DNA of 64,000 nt from Caldalkalibacillus uzonensis (GTDB taxonomy: Bacteria; Bacillota; Bacilli; Caldalkalibacillales; Caldalkalibacillaceae), in the NCBI RefSeq assembly GCF_030814135.1, contig NZ_JAUSUQ010000010.1:62001-126000 (forward strand), read 5' to 3'. Position 1 is the first letter of the stretch. Every line of letters starts with the position of its first letter. Below the pieces are notes generated by a model, which was not told where the DNA came from, ran no database searches, and worked only from the letters and a program-made list of their open reading frames with translations. This document shows, piece by piece, positions 5,258 through 34,707 of this stretch. The translations under genes were made by a program, and so were the position numbers.

Positions 5258-6871
5258 ATGACAGAAAAGCGGGAAATCAGACGTCAAATCAGCTTTCAAA
5301 GACATCTCAAAGTTTTTGCCACCAGGCCAGCCAACTTGACCGATATGCTGGCCCAAACGGTACAGCGCTATCCGCATCAAGAAGCCTTGGTGATGAATCA
5401 GGTCCGTCTCACTTATAGAGAGCTGGAGGAACAGGTGGTGCAGGTGGCTGCGCAACTCTCCACCGTGTACCGGATTCAAAAAGGGGATCGCGTCGCCGTT
5501 TTGCTGGGTAACTGTATTGAGTTTGCCCTCTTGCTCTTTGCCTGTGCCCGCTTAGGGGCCATACTGGTGCCTCTCAACACACGTTTGAAAGAGCAAGAGG
5601 TGTCCTTCATGCTGAGTCATGCCGAGGTTAAACTGCTGGTGACTGACTGGGAATTTGTCGGCAAAGTAGAAACGCTCAGGGAGCAATTTGGTCAGAACCT
5701 GCCTCATCTACAATATTTTATCCTGGTTAACAACAATGAAGAGCAGCTGACTTTGAAATATAGCTATACAACTTTTCAAAATTTACTTCAACCTGGGCCA
5801 AGCATCACACCGGCACAGGTTGGGGAAGAGGATCCACTGTTAATTATGTATACCTCGGGGACGACGGGGCTGCCCAAAGGGGCTGTCTTAAGTCATCTGG
5901 GTGTGATTCACAGCGCTATCAACTATGAACAAAGGTTGGAGACTGATCAAGAGACCAGAACGCTGATTGCCGTCCCTCTCTTTCATGTGACGGGATTGAT
6001 TGGTCAATTGCTGCATATGATTTTGGTGGGAGGGACCTCGGTTTTGATGCGTCGACATCAAACGGAACCCTTTATCCGACTGATGGCCGAGGAGAAAATC
6101 TCCTTCCTCTTCAATGTACCGGCCATCTATGTGATGGTGCTTAATCATGAGCTCTTTCCCAAATATAAGTATGATTCGGTAAAAATCATCGCTTACGGCG
6201 GCGCGCCCATGTCTCCCGAGACCATTCATGCTCTGCGCCAGGCCTTTCCGGGTGTACGACTCCATAACGCCTATGGGGCCACGGAAACGTCTTCTCCCAC
6301 CACCATTATGCCCCGGGAGTATCCAGATACCAAATTAAGTTCGGTGGGGCTGCCTGTTTCGGTGGCGGAGCTGAAAGTGGTTGATGAAGAAGGCCAACTT
6401 TGTGGTCCCAACGAAGTGGGCGAGTTGTGGATCAAAGGGCCTATGGTGGTGGCCGGATACTGGCGCAATGAAGGAGCCAACCGGCAAAATTTCGTCGACG
6501 GCTACTGGTTATCCGGTGACTTGGCCCGAATTGATGAGGATGGTTATGTTTATATCATGGATCGCAAAAAAGATATGATTAACCGGGGAGGTGAGAAGGT
6601 TTATTCAGTTGAGGTGGAAAACATCCTCTACAGCCATCCTCAAGTTTTCGAGGCGGCTGTAGTGGGCCAACCACATCCTGTCCTGGGTGAGGAGGTGGTT
6701 GCTTATGTGGTGCCTAAGCCCGGCGCGGAGCTAGCGGCTGAAGAGATCATTGATTTTCTGGCTCAGCGGCTTGCTGATTATAAAGTGCCTAAAAAAGTTT
6801 TCTTTCTGGATGAGTTGCCCCGTAACCCCGGAGGTAAAGTATTAAAAGCCCAACTTAAAGATCACGCATAA
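5258..6871 (+). CDS. AMP-dependent acyl-CoA synthetase/ligase
   Basis: An ANL-superfamily enzyme of 537 aa that would activate a carboxylic acid with ATP and CoA. Motifs seen in order are MYTSGTTGLPKGA (P-loop-like), NAYGATETSSP, LSGDLARIDEDGY, the hinge MDRKKDMI, and the catalytic Lys in NPGGKVLK near the C-terminus. It sits between an SDR and an acyl-CoA dehydrogenase, so it probably supplies the CoA thioester for that pathway. Position and partners match LvaE of the Pseudomonas levulinate pathway, but sequence alone does not fix chain length. Confidence 0.92.
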   Translation: MTEKREIRRQISFQRHLKVFATRPANLTDMLAQTVQRYPHQEALVMNQVRLTYRELEEQVVQVAAQLSTVYRIQKGDRVAVLLGNCIEFALLLFACARLGAILVPLNTRLKEQEVSFMLSHAEVKLLVTDWEFVGKVETLREQFGQNLPHLQYFILVNNNEEQLTLKYSYTTFQNLLQPGPSITPAQVGEEDPLLIMYTSGTTGLPKGAVLSHLGVIHSAINYEQRLETDQETRTLIAVPLFHVTGLIGQLLHMILVGGTSVLMRRHQTEPFIRLMAEEKISFLFNVPAIYVMVLNHELFPKYKYDSVKIIAYGGAPMSPETIHALRQAFPGVRLHNAYGATETSSPTTIMPREYPDTKLSSVGLPVSVAELKVVDEEGQLCGPNEVGELWIKGPMVVAGYWRNEGANRQNFVDGYWLSGDLARIDEDGYVYIMDRKKDMINRGGEKVYSVEVENILYSHPQVFEAAVVGQPHPVLGEEVVAYVVPKPGAELAAEEIIDFLAQRLADYKVPKKVFFLDELPRNPGGKVLKAQLKDHA

Positions 6872-22704: not shown

Positions 22705-23007
22705 TATTACACCTCCCTTGGAATATTAGCAGCCATTCATTTAGGTCCAGAGTGAGAAAATACATATCATCTAGTGTATGCATGAGAAATTTTAATATGC
22801 ATGCTGGCGGGGTATAATGTTTCAATTTATGCACAATTGTGTAATTTTTATCTTAAGCGATGAGAACCATTAATTCAAGGGTATTTTTCAAAAATAAATG
22901 TCAAAAAATTATTGACAATAAAGAATAGTTGCTATAATATCTAATACATCAGATATTAGTTAATGGCTCGTTACATCATTATGACTTTGATCAGAAGGGG
23001 TGGAAAA
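22705..23007 (+). promoter_or_regulatory. Sigma-A-type promoter with palindromic operator upstream of the OFOR operon
   Basis: This 300-bp gene-free stretch is very A+T-rich. TTGACA (22912-22917) and TATAAT (22933-22938) are perfect hexamers but only 15 bp apart. The -10 runs into a perfect 8-bp inverted repeat, TAATATCT-N8-AGATATTA (22935-22958), covering the expected start site. Repression by a dimeric regulator is likely. The GntR/FCD protein at 31428, at the far end of the same gene group, is the obvious candidate. Confidence 0.6.
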
Positions 23008-24687
23008 ATGAAGAGTATAGCAATATCTGGATTAACAGGGCAAGGAATAGAAACGGCAGGAGAGATTTTATCGTCTGTAGTGAATTCCTTGGGTTACCGA
23101 CATAGAACATGGCGGGATTTTTCTACCATTATTCGTGGTGGACATACTTCATTTGAAATATATATTGCAGACAAAGAAGAAGGCTTGCTCCCTACAAGGG
23201 TTAAACATTTAAATTTGGCTGTTGTTTGGAATGACGAAGGTGTTCAGCATTATCAGCATAGAGTTAAAGAGAAAAATAGGATGTTTGGTTCCAGCAAAGC
23301 GAAGGGGATTTTGCCAGAAAATCAAGTCGACGTCCCTAACCTTGGATTTAATGTGTGGAGTCTAGGCCTAATAGCAGCTTATTTAGGTATTCCTCTGGAA
23401 CTTTTAAAATCGGAGGTGAGCACAAGATTTAAAGGTAAATCAAATGAGGAACTATTGGTTCAAGGATTTCAACTGGGAAAAACCATTGAAACTGATCAGC
23501 CATTGGTTCCCTTAGATTCAGAAAATGTGATTTTATCGGGAAATGATGCCTTATGCTTGGGGGCAATTGCTGGGGGAGTAAGACATTATTATGGCTATCC
23601 CATTACACCGGCTTCGGAAATCCTAGAGAACTTTTTTCGTTGGCTTCCGCCGCTAGGAGGTGCTGCTTACCAGTTGGAAGATGAGATTGCCGCTATCCAT
23701 GCCGCGATTGGCTGTAGCTATGCGGGTGAACGTACATTTGTAGCCACTAGTGGTCCAGGGCTTGCTTTGATGACAGAGGGTCTGAGCTACACAGCTGCCA
23801 CGGAGATACCGTTAGTGATCGTAGATAACCAACGTGGTGGACCCTCAACCGGGATGCCCACTAAAACAGAACAGAGTGATCTAATGCATCTTAGACATGC
23901 AGGACATGGGGATTTTGCTCGGATTTTATTGACGCCAACCAACATTATTGACTGCATTATCACGATGCAAGAAGCTTTGAATCTAGCTGATTATTATCAA
24001 TGCCCGGTGCTTCTAGCACTCGATCTTGATCTTGCTGTCAGAAAGGTCTCTATACCTTGGTCAGCAGTTGAAAGGGCGCTCCAAAGTATTCAGCTGAATA
24101 GAGGTCCAACTATCACTGATCTTAACACTTCTTTAGAAGGGTATGTTCGATATCGTCCCCCAGCTGAAGGTGTTCCACCTCTGCGGTCGATACCCGGAGT
24201 TGCAGGTGGTGCCTATGTGGCCAGTGGGGATGAACATGATGAAAGAGGATGGATGGAACCTGATTTTGGTGAGGTAAGGCAGACACTTCATAAGAGACGG
24301 ACCTTTAAAGCTGACCATATCGAGTACGATCGCCCTTTTACAACACTAGGGGATCCAAAAGCCCCCGTGATGATCATCGGTACAGGCGCATTGGGAGAAT
24401 TGATTGAGACTTTGGTTGGGGATCGTTCAGCAGATTTCCAAGGGTTGCTTATACGCCAACTGTCTCCTGTGCCATGTGAGGCCTTAACAGAAGCTTTAGC
24501 CCATGTTGAGCAGGTGATTATCGCCGAATACAATGCAACAGGGCAAATTCGTACTATACTAAGCGAAGTGTTATCAGATAAGCAGGTTCTATCATTGCTC
24601 CGTTTTGATGGCGAACATTACACCTTGGAAGAGTTTTCAGAGTCAATTGACAGACTTTTAAAGGAAGTGGAAGTTAAGAACAAGTGA
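23008..24687 (+). CDS. 2-oxoacid:ferredoxin oxidoreductase, fused gamma-alpha subunit
   Basis: The start is ATG 23008 (AGAAGGGGTGG upstream); the open frame extends 45 nt further without an RBS. Of 559 aa, about 1-185 form the gamma domain (SGLTGQGIETAGEIL, IIRGGHTSFEI). The rest is the alpha domain (YYGYPITPASEILE, ATSGPGLALMTEGLSYTAATEIP, GGPSTGMPTKTEQSDL). With the beta subunit it oxidises a 2-oxoacid to acyl-CoA and CO2 and reduces ferredoxin. The two-subunit layout matches KorAB-type enzymes. An amino acid dehydrogenase downstream suggests an amino-acid-derived 2-oxoacid. Confidence 0.92.
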   Translation: MKSIAISGLTGQGIETAGEILSSVVNSLGYRHRTWRDFSTIIRGGHTSFEIYIADKEEGLLPTRVKHLNLAVVWNDEGVQHYQHRVKEKNRMFGSSKAKGILPENQVDVPNLGFNVWSLGLIAAYLGIPLELLKSEVSTRFKGKSNEELLVQGFQLGKTIETDQPLVPLDSENVILSGNDALCLGAIAGGVRHYYGYPITPASEILENFFRWLPPLGGAAYQLEDEIAAIHAAIGCSYAGERTFVATSGPGLALMTEGLSYTAATEIPLVIVDNQRGGPSTGMPTKTEQSDLMHLRHAGHGDFARILLTPTNIIDCIITMQEALNLADYYQCPVLLALDLDLAVRKVSIPWSAVERALQSIQLNRGPTITDLNTSLEGYVRYRPPAEGVPPLRSIPGVAGGAYVASGDEHDERGWMEPDFGEVRQTLHKRRTFKADHIEYDRPFTTLGDPKAPVMIIGTGALGELIETLVGDRSADFQGLLIRQLSPVPCEALTEALAHVEQVIIAEYNATGQIRTILSEVLSDKQVLSLLRFDGEHYTLEEFSESIDRLLKEVEVKNK

Positions 24688-24703: not shown

Positions 24704-25534
24704 ATGAGTACAACACTAACGGCAAAAGATTATTCAAATGGTAATAAGCCAACCTGGTGTCCAGGTTGTGGTGATTATTCTGTCTTACGGGGGATTCAAA
24801 AAGCCTTATTATCACTAGGTATCAGACCCGAAAAAACAGTCTTGGTTTCTGGGATAGGATGTAGTGGAAAAATTGCACACTATTTCGGTGGTTATGCCAT
24901 TCATGTGACTCACGGGAGGACTTTGCCCACTGCACAAGGAATCAAAACAGCTCGACCAGATCTTACGGTGATTGCGGCCGGTGGAGATGGTGATGGATAC
25001 GGGATTGGTGTCGGGCATCTGGTTCACGCCGCCAGGAGAAATCTCCCCATCACGTACATCGTGATGGATAACTCTGTATATGGTAACACAAAAGGTCAAA
25101 CATCCCCCACGAGTCCATTGGGTTATCAGTCCTCCACATCGCCTATGGGTAATCAAGATATGCCGGTAAATCCATTATTATTAGCTTGGTCTGCTGGGGC
25201 CTCCTTTATTGGTCAGGGTTTTTCCGGAGATTATAAACATCTTGAAGATCTATTTAAGAGGGGTATTCAGCATCAAGGCTTTTCACTTATCAATGTCTTT
25301 AGTCCCTGTGTCGTTTTCAATAAAGCCCAAGGCTATGATTATTATAAGAACAACATCGTTTATCAAGACCATCCTGCTCCTTCAGCTGAAGAGTATATTT
25401 CCAATTTGATGCAATCTCCTAAGAGAGTTGGTGTTCTGTGGGAAAAGGAAATAAAAGAGCGGAATCTTAGGAATCAGCCAGTGTACCAAACTCATCAAGA
25501 AGTCATTTCCTATCTGCGGACCAACCTCGCTTAG
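24704..25534 (+). CDS. 2-oxoacid:ferredoxin oxidoreductase, beta (TPP-binding) subunit
   Basis: A 276-aa beta subunit. It has TWCPGCGDYSVL (cluster-ligand cysteines), GIGCSGKIAHYF, and the thiamine diphosphate motif GDGDGYGIG followed by DNSVYGNTKGQTSPTS. It follows the alpha gene by 16 bp with RBS GGGAGG. No separate ferredoxin or delta subunit gene is adjacent, so a cellular ferredoxin must serve as acceptor. Confidence 0.93.
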   Translation: MSTTLTAKDYSNGNKPTWCPGCGDYSVLRGIQKALLSLGIRPEKTVLVSGIGCSGKIAHYFGGYAIHVTHGRTLPTAQGIKTARPDLTVIAAGGDGDGYGIGVGHLVHAARRNLPITYIVMDNSVYGNTKGQTSPTSPLGYQSSTSPMGNQDMPVNPLLLAWSAGASFIGQGFSGDYKHLEDLFKRGIQHQGFSLINVFSPCVVFNKAQGYDYYKNNIVYQDHPAPSAEEYISNLMQSPKRVGVLWEKEIKERNLRNQPVYQTHQEVISYLRTNLA

Positions 25535-25596: not shown

Positions 25597-26691
25597 GTGG
25601 ATGGAAAAATTTTTGAATACCTAGAAAAGTATGATTATGAAAATCTATTCTTCCTCAATGACAATCAAACGGGGCTCAAAGGGGTGATCTGCATCCATGA
25701 CACCACACTTGGACCAGCTACTGGTGGCTGCAGAATGTGGACCTATGCCAATGAGTGGGACGCAATCGAGGATGCGCTCCGCCTTGCTAGGGGGATGACC
25801 TACAAATATGCTGCCGCTGGTGTTGATCTCGGGGGTGGCAAGGCGGTTATTATTGGAGATCCAAAAACACAGAAAAGTGAGGCACTTTTTCGTTCATTGG
25901 GACGGTTTATCAATCGTTTAAACGGTATGTACATTACCGGACTAGATGTTGGTACTACGTTAAGGGATATGGAAACAATCAGACTTGAAACACCTTATGT
26001 TGTGACACTTCCCAGAGAATTTGGCGGTGCAGGACAAATATCCAACTATACTGCATTAAGTGTTTTCCAATCCATGAAAGCTTGTGCTGAGGAGAAATTT
26101 GGTGTCAATAGTCTTGAAGGCCTTCGGGTGGGTGTTCAGGGTGTCGGTAGTGTGGGTTACCATGTGGTCAAATTTCTGGCCGAGGAAGGTGCGCACATTA
26201 CAATAGCTGATATTGATCAAGAAAGGGTCAAAGCCGTAGCTGAAGAATTTGGGGCAAAAATAGAAAAGCCCGACCGTATTCATGCCCTTGATCTTGACAT
26301 TTTTTCTCCATGTGCTCTCGGCAAAGTGATCAATGACCAGTCTATAGAGGAGCTTAAGTGCAAGGTAATTGCAGGCTCAGCCAATAATCAACTTGCGGAA
26401 AGCAAACATGGTGACTATTTAGATCAAGCAGGAATTCTTTATGCCCCAGATTATATTGCTAATGCCGGAGGTACGATATTTGATACTGATCGATTAAAAC
26501 CGGGTGGCTTTAATGAAGAGCGGGGAGTCCAAGCTGTAAAGAGGGTTTACGAGACCATGAAGCAGATTATTAAAATCTCTAAAGAAGAACAGATTCCTAC
26601 ATATAAGGCCGCTGATAGATTAGCTGAAAGAAGAATTGCCAGTGTAGGAAAAGCTAAACAGTTACGAAAAGCTGTTAACATTTCAATGTGA
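25597..26691 (+). CDS. Leu/Val/Phe-type amino acid dehydrogenase
   Basis: A 364-aa Glu/Leu/Phe/Val dehydrogenase family member. The N-terminal domain has TTLGPATGGCRMW and the catalytic Lys region DLGGGKAVIIGDP. It also has the Leu-dehydrogenase-like TGLDVGTT and the Rossmann motif GVQGVGSVGYHV. It catalyses reversible NAD-linked deamination of an amino acid to a 2-oxoacid, the expected substrate for the oxidoreductase encoded just upstream. The small length excludes glutamate dehydrogenase; leucine, valine or phenylalanine are all possible. Confidence 0.88.
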   Translation: MDGKIFEYLEKYDYENLFFLNDNQTGLKGVICIHDTTLGPATGGCRMWTYANEWDAIEDALRLARGMTYKYAAAGVDLGGGKAVIIGDPKTQKSEALFRSLGRFINRLNGMYITGLDVGTTLRDMETIRLETPYVVTLPREFGGAGQISNYTALSVFQSMKACAEEKFGVNSLEGLRVGVQGVGSVGYHVVKFLAEEGAHITIADIDQERVKAVAEEFGAKIEKPDRIHALDLDIFSPCALGKVINDQSIEELKCKVIAGSANNQLAESKHGDYLDQAGILYAPDYIANAGGTIFDTDRLKPGGFNEERGVQAVKRVYETMKQIIKISKEEQIPTYKAADRLAERRIASVGKAKQLRKAVNISM

Positions 26692-26721
26692 TCATATGAA
26701 AAATAGGAGGAAGTGATATTG

Positions 26722-27480
26722 ATGCGTTTAAAAGGCAAAGTTTGTGTGGTCACTGGTTCTAGTATGGGGATTGGTGAGACTATCGCCGAGCGGTTTGCTC
26801 AAGAAGGTGCTAAAGTTGTTGTGAACTCCCGAAGTGAAGAACGGGCCCAAAAAACCGCTTCAAGGTTAAAAGAAATGGGGTATGATGTGACACCTATTGC
26901 AGCAGATATGTCTATTAAACAACAGGCGGATATGCTGGTGGAAAAAACTGTGGAGCAATATGGTAAAATTGACGTTTTTGTTAATAATGCTGGGATCAAC
27001 CGTATTGCGCCTTCATTAGAATTGAGTGAAGAAGATTGGCGTGCGGTGATTGATACTAATCTGACGGGAGTATTTTTTGGGTCACAAGCTGCTGGAAAGT
27101 ATATGCAAGATAGAGGGGGTTCAATTATCAATATGACTTCTATCTTTGGTCAAGTGTGTGTCCCCATGAGAGCAGCTTATAGCTCAGCCAAACATGGAAT
27201 TATTGGATTGACAAAGGTTCTTGCCGTGGAGTGGGCAGAAAAAAACATTCGTGTAAATGCTGTAGCTCCCGCATATATCAAAACTCCATTAGACGAGACT
27301 GACCAGGAAACCGGGGGTTACGATGATAGTGATGTGATCAGACGTACTCCATTAAGGCGCTTTGGTTCAACAAAGGAAGTGGCTGATGTCTGCCTCTTTT
27401 TAGCTTCTGATGAGGCCAGTTATGTTACAGGTTCAGTGTATAATGTCGATGGTGGTTGGGTAGCCTATGGCGGGTGGTAG
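26722..27480 (+). CDS. SDR family oxidoreductase
   Basis: The ATG start at 26722 lies 11 nt after GGAGG (TTG 26719 is an alternative). The 252-aa SDR has TGSSMGIG, NNAG, Ser in NMTSIFGQ, Tyr/Lys in AYSSAKHG, and the end NVDGGWVAYGGW. It resembles the SDRs at 4437 and 13437, but its DNA is A+T-richer. It is 30 bp after the amino acid dehydrogenase. Its role in the operon is not clear. Confidence 0.83.
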   Translation: MRLKGKVCVVTGSSMGIGETIAERFAQEGAKVVVNSRSEERAQKTASRLKEMGYDVTPIAADMSIKQQADMLVEKTVEQYGKIDVFVNNAGINRIAPSLELSEEDWRAVIDTNLTGVFFGSQAAGKYMQDRGGSIINMTSIFGQVCVPMRAAYSSAKHGIIGLTKVLAVEWAEKNIRVNAVAPAYIKTPLDETDQETGGYDDSDVIRRTPLRRFGSTKEVADVCLFLASDEASYVTGSVYNVDGGWVAYGGW

Positions 27481-27627: not shown

Positions 27628-27981
27628 GTGAACGTCAGTTTGTTTAAGGAAGCGGATTATCAGTATGAGCCTTTGGAGGGAACGATTGGTGTTGGTTATG
27701 CTGAAATTACCCGTTTCGTCAGGGATGAGATTTCATCTACATTGGGCGGCGGAATAGTTAAAATGAAGACATGTAAGTTTCCATGGACGGTAAGATATGA
27801 TGAAGTGATCTATGTCATTGAAGGAGAGGTCATTATTCACTTTGATGGCAAAAAGTTGGTAGGTCAAAAAGGTGACTCATTCTTTATTGAAAAAGGTTCT
27901 CCTATTGTATACGAATCTCTTTCTGAAAGTTCATTTTTCTTTTCTTTATACCCCGCAAACTGGAGGAAGAAGGAAGTTTAG
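27628..27981 (+). CDS. Cupin domain protein, EutQ-like
   Basis: GTG 27628 is chosen because AGGAGG (27615-27620) is 7 nt upstream; ATG 27622 would be only 1 nt from it. The 117-aa single cupin has VIYVIEGEVIIHFDGKK and GDSFFIEKGSPIVYES, resembling the EutQ ethanolamine-utilisation cupin. Few His ligands remain, so metal-dependent catalysis is uncertain. No other eut genes are present. Function unknown. Confidence 0.7.
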   Translation: MNVSLFKEADYQYEPLEGTIGVGYAEITRFVRDEISSTLGGGIVKMKTCKFPWTVRYDEVIYVIEGEVIIHFDGKKLVGQKGDSFFIEKGSPIVYESLSESSFFFSLYPANWRKKEV

Positions 27982-28044
27982 AAATATACCCTAATTTTTC
28001 TGAAGAATATATATTTTTAAAACCATTATCTGGGAGGCGGTAAG

Positions 28045-28206
28045 ATGACATTTGGGATTTTTATAAGTCTAATAGGCTTTCCTATTGCTGTCTTGATTGT
28101 TACTTTCTTGTGTTATTGGGATATTGAGAGGAAGTACAAAGAACAAAACAAATCGGGACTAGAACGTGGCCCTGTGTCCAGTGAAGAAGGAGGGATATCT
28201 TCATGA
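28045..28206 (+). CDS. Small membrane protein (53 aa) coupled to the symporter
   Basis: ATG 28045 follows GGGAGGCGG at good spacing. The product begins MTFGIFISLIGFPIAVLIV, one transmembrane helix, then CYWDIERKYKEQ and a polar C-terminal tail. Its stop overlaps the symporter start as ATGA (28203-28206), implying translational coupling. Short single-helix proteins directly upstream of sodium:solute symporters are a recurring arrangement and are presumed accessory subunits. The protein is below usual gene-calling length limits. Confidence 0.75.
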   Translation: MTFGIFISLIGFPIAVLIVTFLCYWDIERKYKEQNKSGLERGPVSSEEGGISS

Positions 28207-29729
28207 GTACGCATCCCCTAACCATCACTGTTTTTATCTTATATCTCATCATGCTAATCGTAATAGGCATTGCCAGTGCAAAGAAAAGTTCTGGAGGATT
28301 GATAAGTTTCTTCCTAGCTGGAAGAGGTTTGGGAAAGTGGACTGTAGCGCTAAGTGCTGTCAGTTCTGGACGTAGTAGCTGGCTGGTTTTAGGAGTAACC
28401 GGAATTGCTTATTTAAACGGATTACAAGCCGTGTGGACGGTAGCAGGTTATATCTTTGTGGAGATCTTTATGTTTTTCTATGCTGCCAGACGCTTTAGGA
28501 AGTACAGTGAGCAGAGTGGGAGTATAACCATTCCCGATATCTTAGAAACCAGGTATCAGGATAAAACAAGGGTGTTAAGAATAACAAGCTCTTTAATCTT
28601 AATTTTCTTTATGATTGCTTATGTTGGCAGTCAAATTGTGGCAGGAGGGACAGCGTTTTCAGGAGGTTTAGGTCTCTCTCAAAATGGGGGCATGTGGTTA
28701 ACTGCAATAATCTTACTCCTGTATACGATGCTTGGCGGCTTTCACGCTGTATCTAAAACCGATTTGGTGCAAGCGATCTTTATGCTTCTCTCTCTCGTTA
28801 TTTTGCCCATCATCGCTATTATAAATATTGGCGGGTTTGGGCCGGTCTTAGAGGCCATGTATGCTCAAGGGTCAAGTTTTACAGCCCCATTCTCGTTTGC
28901 TATTGGTACAATCATTAATTTGGTTGGTATTGGTTTGGCTAGTCCCGGCAATCCACATATATTGGTCCGTTACATGTCCTTGAAAAGTCTTAAAGAAATG
29001 AGTCAAGCGGCTATCATTGGAACGTTATGGAATTTGGCTATGGCCTATGGGGCTATTATGATCGGGTTTGTCGGTCGAGCTTACTTTCCGGACATTAGTA
29101 TGCTACCTAATGAAAACCATGAAGCCATCTTTACTACATTGGGTCAAACAGTCCTTGATCCCTTTACCTTTGGTATCTTAGTTGTTGCGATTCTTGCCGC
29201 TATCATGTCCAGTGCTGATAGCCAATTATTAGTTGGTTCAAGTGTGATCGTGCGCGACATATATGACAAGATATTTAGAAAAGGGAAGGAAATCTCTGAA
29301 GCCAAATTAACATTATATAGTAGATTGTCCACTGTCGTTATAATGCTTTTGGCGGTTTGGTTGGCTTTTTCCTTTCAAGAGTTCGTTTTCTGGATGGTAT
29401 TGTTTGCCTTCGGGGGACTTGGCGCATGTTTTGGGCCAGCCTTACTCTTATCCTTTTATTGGAAAGGAACAACAAAACAGGGTATTTTATGGGGTATGAT
29501 TGCGGGCTTAATTACAGTTATATTAGTCAAGCAACAGCCTCAATGGACCTATGCTTTTCTACCAGATATAAAGGCCTTAGTGGGCAAAATTATGTTTGGT
29601 GTCACATATGAAGCTGTCCCCGGAGTGATTATAGCTACCCTGGTTATCATTGTCGTGAGTAAATTCACCAAAAAACCTGATAATGCGGTACAGATTGTGG
29701 ATGATTTGTCCTCATATAGGATTGATTAA
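28203..29729 (+). CDS. Sodium:solute symporter family transporter
   Basis: A 508-aa polytopic membrane protein of the SSS family (PutP/PanF-like), with about 13 hydrophobic segments. Family features include FFLAGRGLGKWTVALS near the N-terminus, TMLGGFHAVSKTDLVQAIFM, and the sodium-site region ILAAIMSSADSQLLVGSS. It would import an organic solute with Na+. In this operon an amino acid or its 2-oxoacid is the likely cargo. It is coupled to the small membrane protein upstream. Confidence 0.92.
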   Translation: MSTHPLTITVFILYLIMLIVIGIASAKKSSGGLISFFLAGRGLGKWTVALSAVSSGRSSWLVLGVTGIAYLNGLQAVWTVAGYIFVEIFMFFYAARRFRKYSEQSGSITIPDILETRYQDKTRVLRITSSLILIFFMIAYVGSQIVAGGTAFSGGLGLSQNGGMWLTAIILLLYTMLGGFHAVSKTDLVQAIFMLLSLVILPIIAIINIGGFGPVLEAMYAQGSSFTAPFSFAIGTIINLVGIGLASPGNPHILVRYMSLKSLKEMSQAAIIGTLWNLAMAYGAIMIGFVGRAYFPDISMLPNENHEAIFTTLGQTVLDPFTFGILVVAILAAIMSSADSQLLVGSSVIVRDIYDKIFRKGKEISEAKLTLYSRLSTVVIMLLAVWLAFSFQEFVFWMVLFAFGGLGACFGPALLLSFYWKGTTKQGILWGMIAGLITVILVKQQPQWTYAFLPDIKALVGKIMFGVTYEAVPGVIIATLVIIVVSKFTKKPDNAVQIVDDLSSYRID

Positions 29730-29734
29730 ACAGG

Positions 29735-30001
29735 ATGTTTGGCTCGAGATCAGAGCAGTTGAAAAGGTTTCTCACCTTAAGAAAGTAGAGGAGTTGCACG
29801 GTAAGATTTGGAGTCCGAATGTAAAGGTGCCTGTGCCTCACTTGATCGCAGTTTCTCATAATGGTGGCCTCATATTGGGGTGCCTTCCGTAATGAAGAAA
29901 TGATCGGCTTCTTGAAAAGTTTGCCAGCAATAAGTGACAGTGGAATATATTTGTTTTATCAATTGTGGAACTTGCATGACTTTTACTTAGCTCTTAAATA
30001 G
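29735..30001 (+). pseudogene. Remnant of a GNAT-family acetyltransferase (COG3375-like)
   Basis: In one frame LEIRAVEKVSHLKKVEELHG, then IWSPNVKVPVPHLIAVSHNG and GLILG match the N-terminus of predicted GNAT acetyltransferases. The frame then stops. Removing one G from the GGGG run near 29877-29881 restores LGAFRNEEMIGF in the next frame, which runs to 30001 and then degenerates. The acetyl-CoA-binding core is missing. The start codon is also doubtful. It fills the gap between the symporter and malic enzyme. Confidence 0.55.
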
Positions 30002-33935: not shown

Positions 33936-34707
33936 ATGTCGAAAATGCTGGTTGGTATAGACGTGAGCTTACGCTCCCACCATGTGCAATGCATGGATGA
34001 GGCGGGAAGATCACTGGCCTCCTTTTCTGTTTCTAATGATCAAAACGGGGCAGACACCCTCATTAAACGGATGTTAGAAACCTCCGAAAAGGTAAATAGC
34101 CATATTCTTCAAATTGGTATGGAAGCCACATCAAACCTTGGATGGTATTTGGCTCATTACTTAAAAGATCAACTTCAAGGTTACGAGCCTAAACTAAAAG
34201 CTCAAATATACGTCTTGAATGCAAGGAAGGTCGCTCGCTTTAAAAAAGGCTATGATCACTTGCACAAGAACGACCGGATCGACGCCTGGGTCATTGCAGA
34301 CCACCTGCGTTTTAAAAGAACATGGTAAAAACCGTTTTGCTAACCCTGAAGAGATCGCTAAATATTTACAGAAGATCGCACGATCTTCATATCGATTAAA
34401 CAAAGTCATGGCGGATCCTGTTATGCCGGGTTAGTGTGGAACCAGCATCAATCTGGTGAGTTTGAAGCCGAAGAGACAGCGCGAGCCCAGACAGGCAATA
34501 AGTACCTTCGGTATTATCTCGTTCAAGTAGCTGATAAAGTCCGTCACCATGATTTCGAATACAAGTCCTTTTACCAAAAGAAGTTTGACGAAGTTCCTAA
34601 GCATCAACACAAACGAGCCCTCGTCCTTACCGCAAGAAAATTGGTAGGTTGGTATATGCGCTACTAAGCACCAACAAACTGTACACACCACCTGAAAGGA
34701 GAGATTA
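33936..34707 (+). pseudogene. IS110 family transposase, disrupted
   Basis: The N-terminal DEDD (RuvC-like) domain is intact to about residue 128: GIDVSLRSHHV (first Asp), GMEATSNLGWYL (Glu), KNDRIDAWVIADHLRF (last Asps). A frameshift near 34315 is followed by KEHGKNRFANPEEIAKYLQK. A large deletion near 34428 then joins the linker to YAGLVWNQHQSGEF, removing most of the C-terminal transposase_20 domain with its catalytic Ser region. A third shift near 34645 restores VYALLSTNKLYTPPERRD to the stop at 34707. The element cannot move by itself. Confidence 0.85.

Follow-up and report, generated by a model that had tools for sequence, protein, structure and literature searches.

A conserved one-helix membrane protein encoded immediately before a PutP-like sodium:solute symporter in Caldalkalibacillus uzonensis, a probable accessory subunit

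Known small partners of sodium:solute symporters

Small membrane proteins encoded beside genes for sodium:solute symporters (SSS) are already on record, in Pfam families to which no function has been assigned. The closest described systems are DUF485 (YjcH), DUF997 (YhdT), DUF3311, and DUF4212/TIGR03647, which stand immediately before an SSS gene; TIGR03647 bears the name "sodium/substrate symporter small subunit." Their proteins are about 63 to 108 aa long and, by our reading, have two helices. A hypothetical gene is also reported to be cotranscribed with an archaeal acetate SSS (PMC7746861). A partial literature search retrieved a single case in which the small partner of an SSS was deleted by itself: Sinorhizobium fredii NGR234 grew on pyruvate almost unaffected after loss of the DUF3311 gene of the mctP operon, while a strain lacking mctP grew with a delay of about 24 h (PMC9100948). 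This partial search returned no single deletion of yjcH and no paper on one-helix SSS partners.

A partner with one helix is known from MAP17 (PDZK1IP1), the auxiliary subunit of human SGLT2. Its single helix is reported to pack against TM13 of SGLT2 and to remain part of the fixed bundle, or scaffold, of the transporter, and the absence of MAP17 lowers the thermal stability of SGLT2 (PMC10803289). The protein described here resembles MAP17 in being a single helix that accompanies an SSS/SLC5 transporter, but MAP17 is eukaryotic, longer than the bacterial protein, and encoded apart from its transporter. PutP-type transporters are not known to have a counterpart of TM13 of SGLT2, a 14th helix.

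A small gene overlapping the gene of a PutP-like symporter

The window, a stretch of 64,000 nucleotides of the C. uzonensis genome, contains an SSS gene that is immediately preceded by a short ORF, downstream of a run of genes for amino acid and 2-oxoacid metabolism. The features are as follows.

22963..24687, plus strand, 2-oxoacid:ferredoxin oxidoreductase, alpha/gamma subunits (profile match)
24704..25534, plus strand, 2-oxoacid:ferredoxin oxidoreductase, beta subunit (profile match)
25597..26691, plus strand, Glu/Leu/Phe/Val dehydrogenase family protein (profile match)
26713..27480, plus strand, short-chain dehydrogenase (profile match)
27634..27981, plus strand, EutQ-like cupin, the nearest upstream gene (profile matches)
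28032..28037, plus strand, GGGAGG, Shine-Dalgarno sequence of the small gene, read directly, with the ATG 7 nt downstream
28045..28206, plus strand, small one-helix membrane protein of 53 aa, type A partner (translation, alignment, and predicted structure)
28187..28194, plus strand, AAGGAGGG, Shine-Dalgarno sequence of the symporter gene, read directly within the small ORF
28203..28206, plus strand, ATGA, in which the TGA of the small ORF overlaps the ATG that starts the SSS gene
28203..29729, plus strand, SSS of 508 aa, PutP-like branch (Pfam SSF, E value of 1.1e-79)

The small ORF translates as MTFGIFISLIGFPIAVLIVTFLCYWDIERKYKEQNKSGLERGPVSSEEGGISS*, a protein whose first half is hydrophobic and whose tail is charged. 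AlphaFold, run on six sequences, returned a single helix spanning residues 3 to 37, with a mean confidence of 95 for residues 11 to 20 and 90 for residues 21 to 30, and low values for the tail. The earlier note on this DNA, made from the letters alone, had described a tiny one-helix protein of 53 residues with its own ribosome-binding site and an ATGA overlap with the symporter start, and each of these points is borne out by the translation, the predicted helix, and the signals listed above. Proteins tend to keep positively charged residues on the inner side of the membrane (the positive-inside rule). Since the stretch past the helix is basic and the N terminus is almost devoid of charge, the protein is predicted to have its N terminus outside and its charged tail inside. 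The symporter has its own Shine-Dalgarno sequence within the small ORF, so translational coupling of the two genes is possible but unnecessary for initiation at the symporter.

We refer to this protein and its counterparts as type A. The 53-aa protein retrieved no Pfam or NCBIfam model, and such an ORF is therefore easily overlooked. When eight type A members were compared with the Pfam models of DUF485, DUF997, DUF3311, and DUF4212, the only match was that of one member to DUF485, with a nonsignificant E value of 0.094. We accordingly ruled out membership in these four families: there is no significant model match, and they are larger and have two helices, whereas type A has one helix and 53 aa. 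By gene position, type A nevertheless fits the wide sense of a putative SSS small subunit, a conserved small membrane protein encoded just before an SSS gene, in 12 of 12 cases (see below).

The symporter scores 268.7 bits against PF00474 (cutoff, 22.8), which places it in the SSS family. Its closest curated family is the PutP sodium/proline symporter, NCBIfam TIGR02121, against which it scores 402.7 bits, below the equivalog cutoff of 515.5. In place of the PutP motif AxASDMSGW, the symporter has AVSSGRSSW, and all 12 members of its clade share AVSSGRS[SAG]W (residues 54 to 59 being SSGRS[SAG], versus ASDMSG in PutP). The TM2 aspartate expected of a proline-specific transporter, Asp55 in Escherichia coli and Asp58 in Helicobacter pylori, is thus replaced by Gly56, followed by Arg57, in 12/12 members; the same position holds Asp in 26/26 SSS with a type B partner (see below) and in 82/83 SSS without a partner, the remaining one having a gap. 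According to a study of PutP, Asp58 is essential in the H. pylori protein, its E. coli counterpart Asp55 is particularly significant for function, and a serine/threonine pair at the Na2 site is conserved across the family (PMC3866251). The window clade shares this pair with PutP, as S336/S337, and is likely to have retained Na+ coupling. Two features point away from proline as the solute and perhaps toward an amino or oxo acid: at the substrate site, the aspartate has been lost and an arginine has appeared, and genes for amino acid and 2-oxoacid metabolism flank the pair in three of seven genomes. Arg57 may bind an acid group.

Two residues past the Na2 pair, the helix residue Asp339 is present in 12/12 SSS with a type A partner, 24/26 with type B (one of the other two has Ser and one is unreadable), and 2/2 with type C, and the position is Ser in 80/83 partnerless SSS. 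As a marker of the partner, this residue was rejected: it requires just two changes on the tree, and columns 271, 96, and 92 track the partner as well or better. Phylogeny alone may explain the pattern. A structure prediction for the symporter from seven sequences reached a pLDDT of 39, too poor for mapping a partner surface.

All five upstream genes listed above are also kept beside the pair in two other loci (L031 and L032), so that the operon flanks the pair in three of the seven genomes compared. In the remaining four (L033, from Halalkalibacterium halodurans, to L036), the pair of small gene and SSS persists, and no oxidoreductase, dehydrogenase, or cupin gene of this operon was seen in the 4 kb fetched 5' of it. 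On the other side, between the symporter and a malic enzyme gene, two short ORFs at 29683 to 30001 resemble pieces of a gene that L031 has just after its symporter (5635 to 6465, 276 aa); judged by eye, this region looks like a decayed gene. Farther downstream lies an ORF at 33936 to 34328, beginning MSKMLVGIDVSLRSHHVQCMDEAGR, which looks like the first part of an IS110-type transposase.

Conservation of type A and one-helix partners of other symporters

A scan of GTDB species genomes with the symporter yielded six loci with 67 to 75% identity (Alkalihalobacterium elongatum, Bacillus sp. MRMR6, Halalkalibacterium halodurans, Bacillus horikoshii, Evansella vedderi, and Alkalihalobacillus bogoriensis). 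In all six, and in the orthologue from genome G002, a comparable small ORF stands immediately 5' of the symporter, and, over the entire set of SSS orthologues examined, the window included, a type A ORF lies directly upstream in 12/12. The earlier note had named a lack of conservation at orthologous loci as what would refute it, and this comparison does not refute it. A strict automatic rule (25 to 90 aa, hydropathy, and a Shine-Dalgarno match of at least 4) recovers 11 of the 12; the exception, L064, fails in the Shine-Dalgarno match only. The stop codon falls between 4 nt inside and 14 nt before the SSS start, with an overlap of 4 nt in six orthologues, of 1 nt in two, and none in four. Hence, tight linkage is general among the orthologues, but the ATGA itself is not.

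Over codons 2 to 31, i.e., excluding the variable tail, pN is lower than pS in 66/66 pairs of the 12 type A genes (mean pN, 0.38; mean pS, 0.78). M1, I5, F6, L9, P13, and Y24 are invariant in an alignment of eight members, and the charged tail is poorly conserved in it. We also searched 398 Bacilli genomes separately with a profile of eight small proteins and with the symporter. The small-protein profile matched in six genomes at E values of at most 3.2e-8 (G000, G002, G169, G184, G317, and G352), each time immediately before the symporter, and the SSS orthologue (at least 678 bits, with the next SSS at 314) is confined to the same six; neither gene occurred alone in any of the 398. Two of the six genomes (G000 and G002) supplied rows of the profile, a third row of which closely resembles G352. 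The profile matched in 27 genomes altogether, and we rejected the other 21 as weak (E values of at least 3e-5): 20 have no SSS in the stretch fetched, and the last, L058, is a type C pair. Among plasmids, the SSS had no match at E values of at most 1e-100. Given the 12/12 upstream conservation, the co-occurrence across 398 genomes, and the excess of pS over pN in every pair, a chance ORF can be rejected: the region from 28045 to 28206 is a real gene under selection.

The earlier note had also advised looking for similar short ORFs before other SSS genes, and this search returned two further kinds. We collected 127 distinct SSS proteins from Bacillota genomes and dropped one (L085, 352 aa). Upstream of the remaining 126 are 12 type A partners, 26 of type B, 2 of type C, 2 divergent one-helix proteins, 1 DUF997 protein, and no partner in 83 cases. 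These counts include by-eye overrides at six loci, three in favor of a partner (L064, L028, and L145) and three against (L105, L127, and L142). Type B is a one-helix family of 29 to 39 aa with the consensus MxxSLTxATWFWLxVPMxLxIxLSIxTY; type C, known from two sequences, has the motif FWWxVPWP. Neither has a Pfam or NCBIfam model. Together spanning 29 to 55 aa, both resemble type A in having one helix with a proline in its middle and in standing immediately before an SSS gene, PutP-like or other, but type A lacks both of their motifs, TWFWxxVPMP and FWWxVPWP.

By the strict rule, a small ORF precedes 11/12 genes of the window clade, 19/21 PutP genes with an AQA-DMS motif, and 8/79 with AGA-DMS, as well as 1/7 with AEA, 0/1 with SQA, and 4/6 with other motifs. 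The 79 AGA-DMS genes are mostly of the Bacillus-type PutP and serve as a built-in control; as only eight are positive, two of which (L127 and L142) were judged false, as was L105, the rule is not satisfied before just any SSS. In 358 genomes of the phylum, all 10 matches of the type B profile with E values of at most 1.2e-5 immediately precede an SSS gene, as does one (L161) of six weaker matches.

In the host genome itself, PF00474 identifies 11 intact SSS genes (counting L187 and L191 as one gene and excluding L192), 9 of which are preceded by a small membrane ORF. Five of these are one-helix partners outside any listed family: type A in the window, type B on contig C3, type C on C4, and two 40-aa ORFs without a family model, each immediately 5' of an SSS gene (L185, C2:348389; L188, C15:15000). 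The two 40-aa ORFs share MAIL near the start and QW. The others are DUF997 (C4), DUF4212/TIGR03647 (C2), DUF485 (C2:197630), and a DUF3311 relative (C4) below the Pfam cutoff. Two SSS genes, L186 and L189, have no small membrane ORF upstream. The excluded L192 (C1:179963) is a partial match, over profile positions 198 to 406, in a frame that does not read as a whole SSS gene; it may be what is left of such a gene or result from a join in the assembly.

Profile-profile comparisons gave scores of 24.8 for A-B, 28.8 for A-C, and 32.3 for B-C, with single-comparison E values of 1.7e-5, 5e-6, and 3e-7, respectively. Reversed-profile controls for these pairs scored 8.2 to 10.5, and with 13 SSS helices as controls type A scored at best 22.4 (the next being 15.5), type B 16.5, and type C 15.1. 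At the level of sequence, kinship thus appears well supported for B and C, fairly so for A and C, and moderately for A and B, and the three types likely share a common descent. DUF3311 scores 18.1 with B and 22.2 with C, across its second helix, a weak link that concerns these two types only. The type A profile did not rise clearly above background with DUF3311, DUF997, or DUF4212, and a link of DUF997 to types A to C was rejected, its profile scores being not above background.

A quick-method tree of 51 SSS proteins, some of whose long branches were flagged, recovered the window clade as one branch with support of 100 and type C as one branch, with the partnerless proteins in two groups that fall within the type B part of the tree. 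For this tree, L155 (<440 aa) was omitted, and similarity thinning left 9 of the 83 partnerless proteins. With a PanF-like paralogue assumed as the root, the partner looks ancestral and lost twice, once toward the classical Bacillus-type PutP. These patterns lead us to a wider proposal, which we put forward tentatively and think rather less probable than its negation: that bacterial SSS are as a rule two-part systems, in which a small membrane protein, often a one-helix protein missing from family lists, serves as the second subunit; that types A, B, and C form one family, perhaps equivalent to the second helix of DUF3311/DUF4212; and that the Bacillus-type PutP is an exception that lost its subunit.

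Probable role of the one-helix protein

We favor the reading that the 53-residue protein is a dedicated accessory subunit of the SSS encoded next to it, acting in assembly or stability and comparable to MAP17, and give it a probability of roughly 0.68. This reading is founded on the adjacency in 12/12 orthologues, the co-occurrence in six genomes, the excess of pS over pN, and the persistence of the pair where the operon is absent, together with the type B partners before 26/126 SSS, the small ORFs before 9 of the 11 SSS genes of the host genome, and the precedent of MAP17. The small protein would be made from the message of the symporter, just before and beside the transporter; it would insert as a single helix with its N terminus outside and its charged tail inside; and the helix would pack on the membrane surface of the transporter, where it would aid folding, stability, or the fixed scaffold in the manner of MAP17 and SGLT2. 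By this parallel, the helix may stabilize its SSS or help to assemble it. Cotranscription, physical binding, topology, and a role in stability are the parts of this reading that we infer. Against a subunit, partnerless PutP transporters are common (83 of the 126 SSS examined), so that SSS in general need no such partner. Moreover, adjacency and co-loss are also what is expected of any strictly cotranscribed small gene. The earlier note had gone further in suggesting an obligatory subunit; the pairing is indeed obligatory in the 398 Bacilli genomes, but the near-normal growth of S. fredii NGR234 without its DUF3311 gene argues against the word where transport is concerned.

That same dispensable partner would better suit a modulator than an essential subunit, and the small protein could instead be a condition-dependent regulator that tunes the activity of the transporter or its turnover by membrane proteases. 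Small proteins that modulate several types of transporters, among them MgtR, MgtU, SgrT, and AcrZ, have been described (PMC10710835), and the variable charged tail could contact other proteins. A gene placed immediately before the transporter in 12/12 cases, however, leaves little room for independent control of its amount, and we consider a regulator unlikely. The arrangement of the two genes also bears on a view in which the peptide itself is irrelevant and the ORF is a translational leader, whose ribosomes open or feed the symporter start. In all 12 orthologues, the stop codon is close to that start, at most 4 nt inside it or 14 nt ahead of it, and the ATGA of the window is the part of the earlier note's proposal of translational coupling that stands; the strong Shine-Dalgarno sequence of the symporter and the four orthologues without overlap weigh against a leader and make coupling no more than a possibility. 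Conservation of the amino acids far above that of synonymous sites, along with the invariant proline and the membrane helix, would be hard to reconcile with an irrelevant peptide, and a leader function is very improbable. More improbable still is a protein with no part in transport, such as a hydrophobic mini-toxin or the product of an orphan gene riding the operon by chance. Bacteria commonly carry small hydrophobic ORFs, and this one lacks a Pfam or NCBIfam family, but in 398 genomes it never occurred except beside a member of this SSS clade, and the two genes stay together where the other operon genes are missing. An accessory subunit therefore remains the reading that we prefer.

As far as a partial literature search shows, three things are new: one-helix families that are not yet catalogued, the strictness with which they pair with SSS clades, and the count over one genome. 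They offer annotators several families to add. The SSS family includes the human transporters for glucose, iodide, choline, and vitamins, and SGLT2 needs a one-helix subunit. If one-helix subunits are common among bacterial SSS, some transporters would have been studied without their partner, and the bacterial pairs would provide a simple model for the question raised by MAP17, namely, what a single helix does for an SSS transporter.
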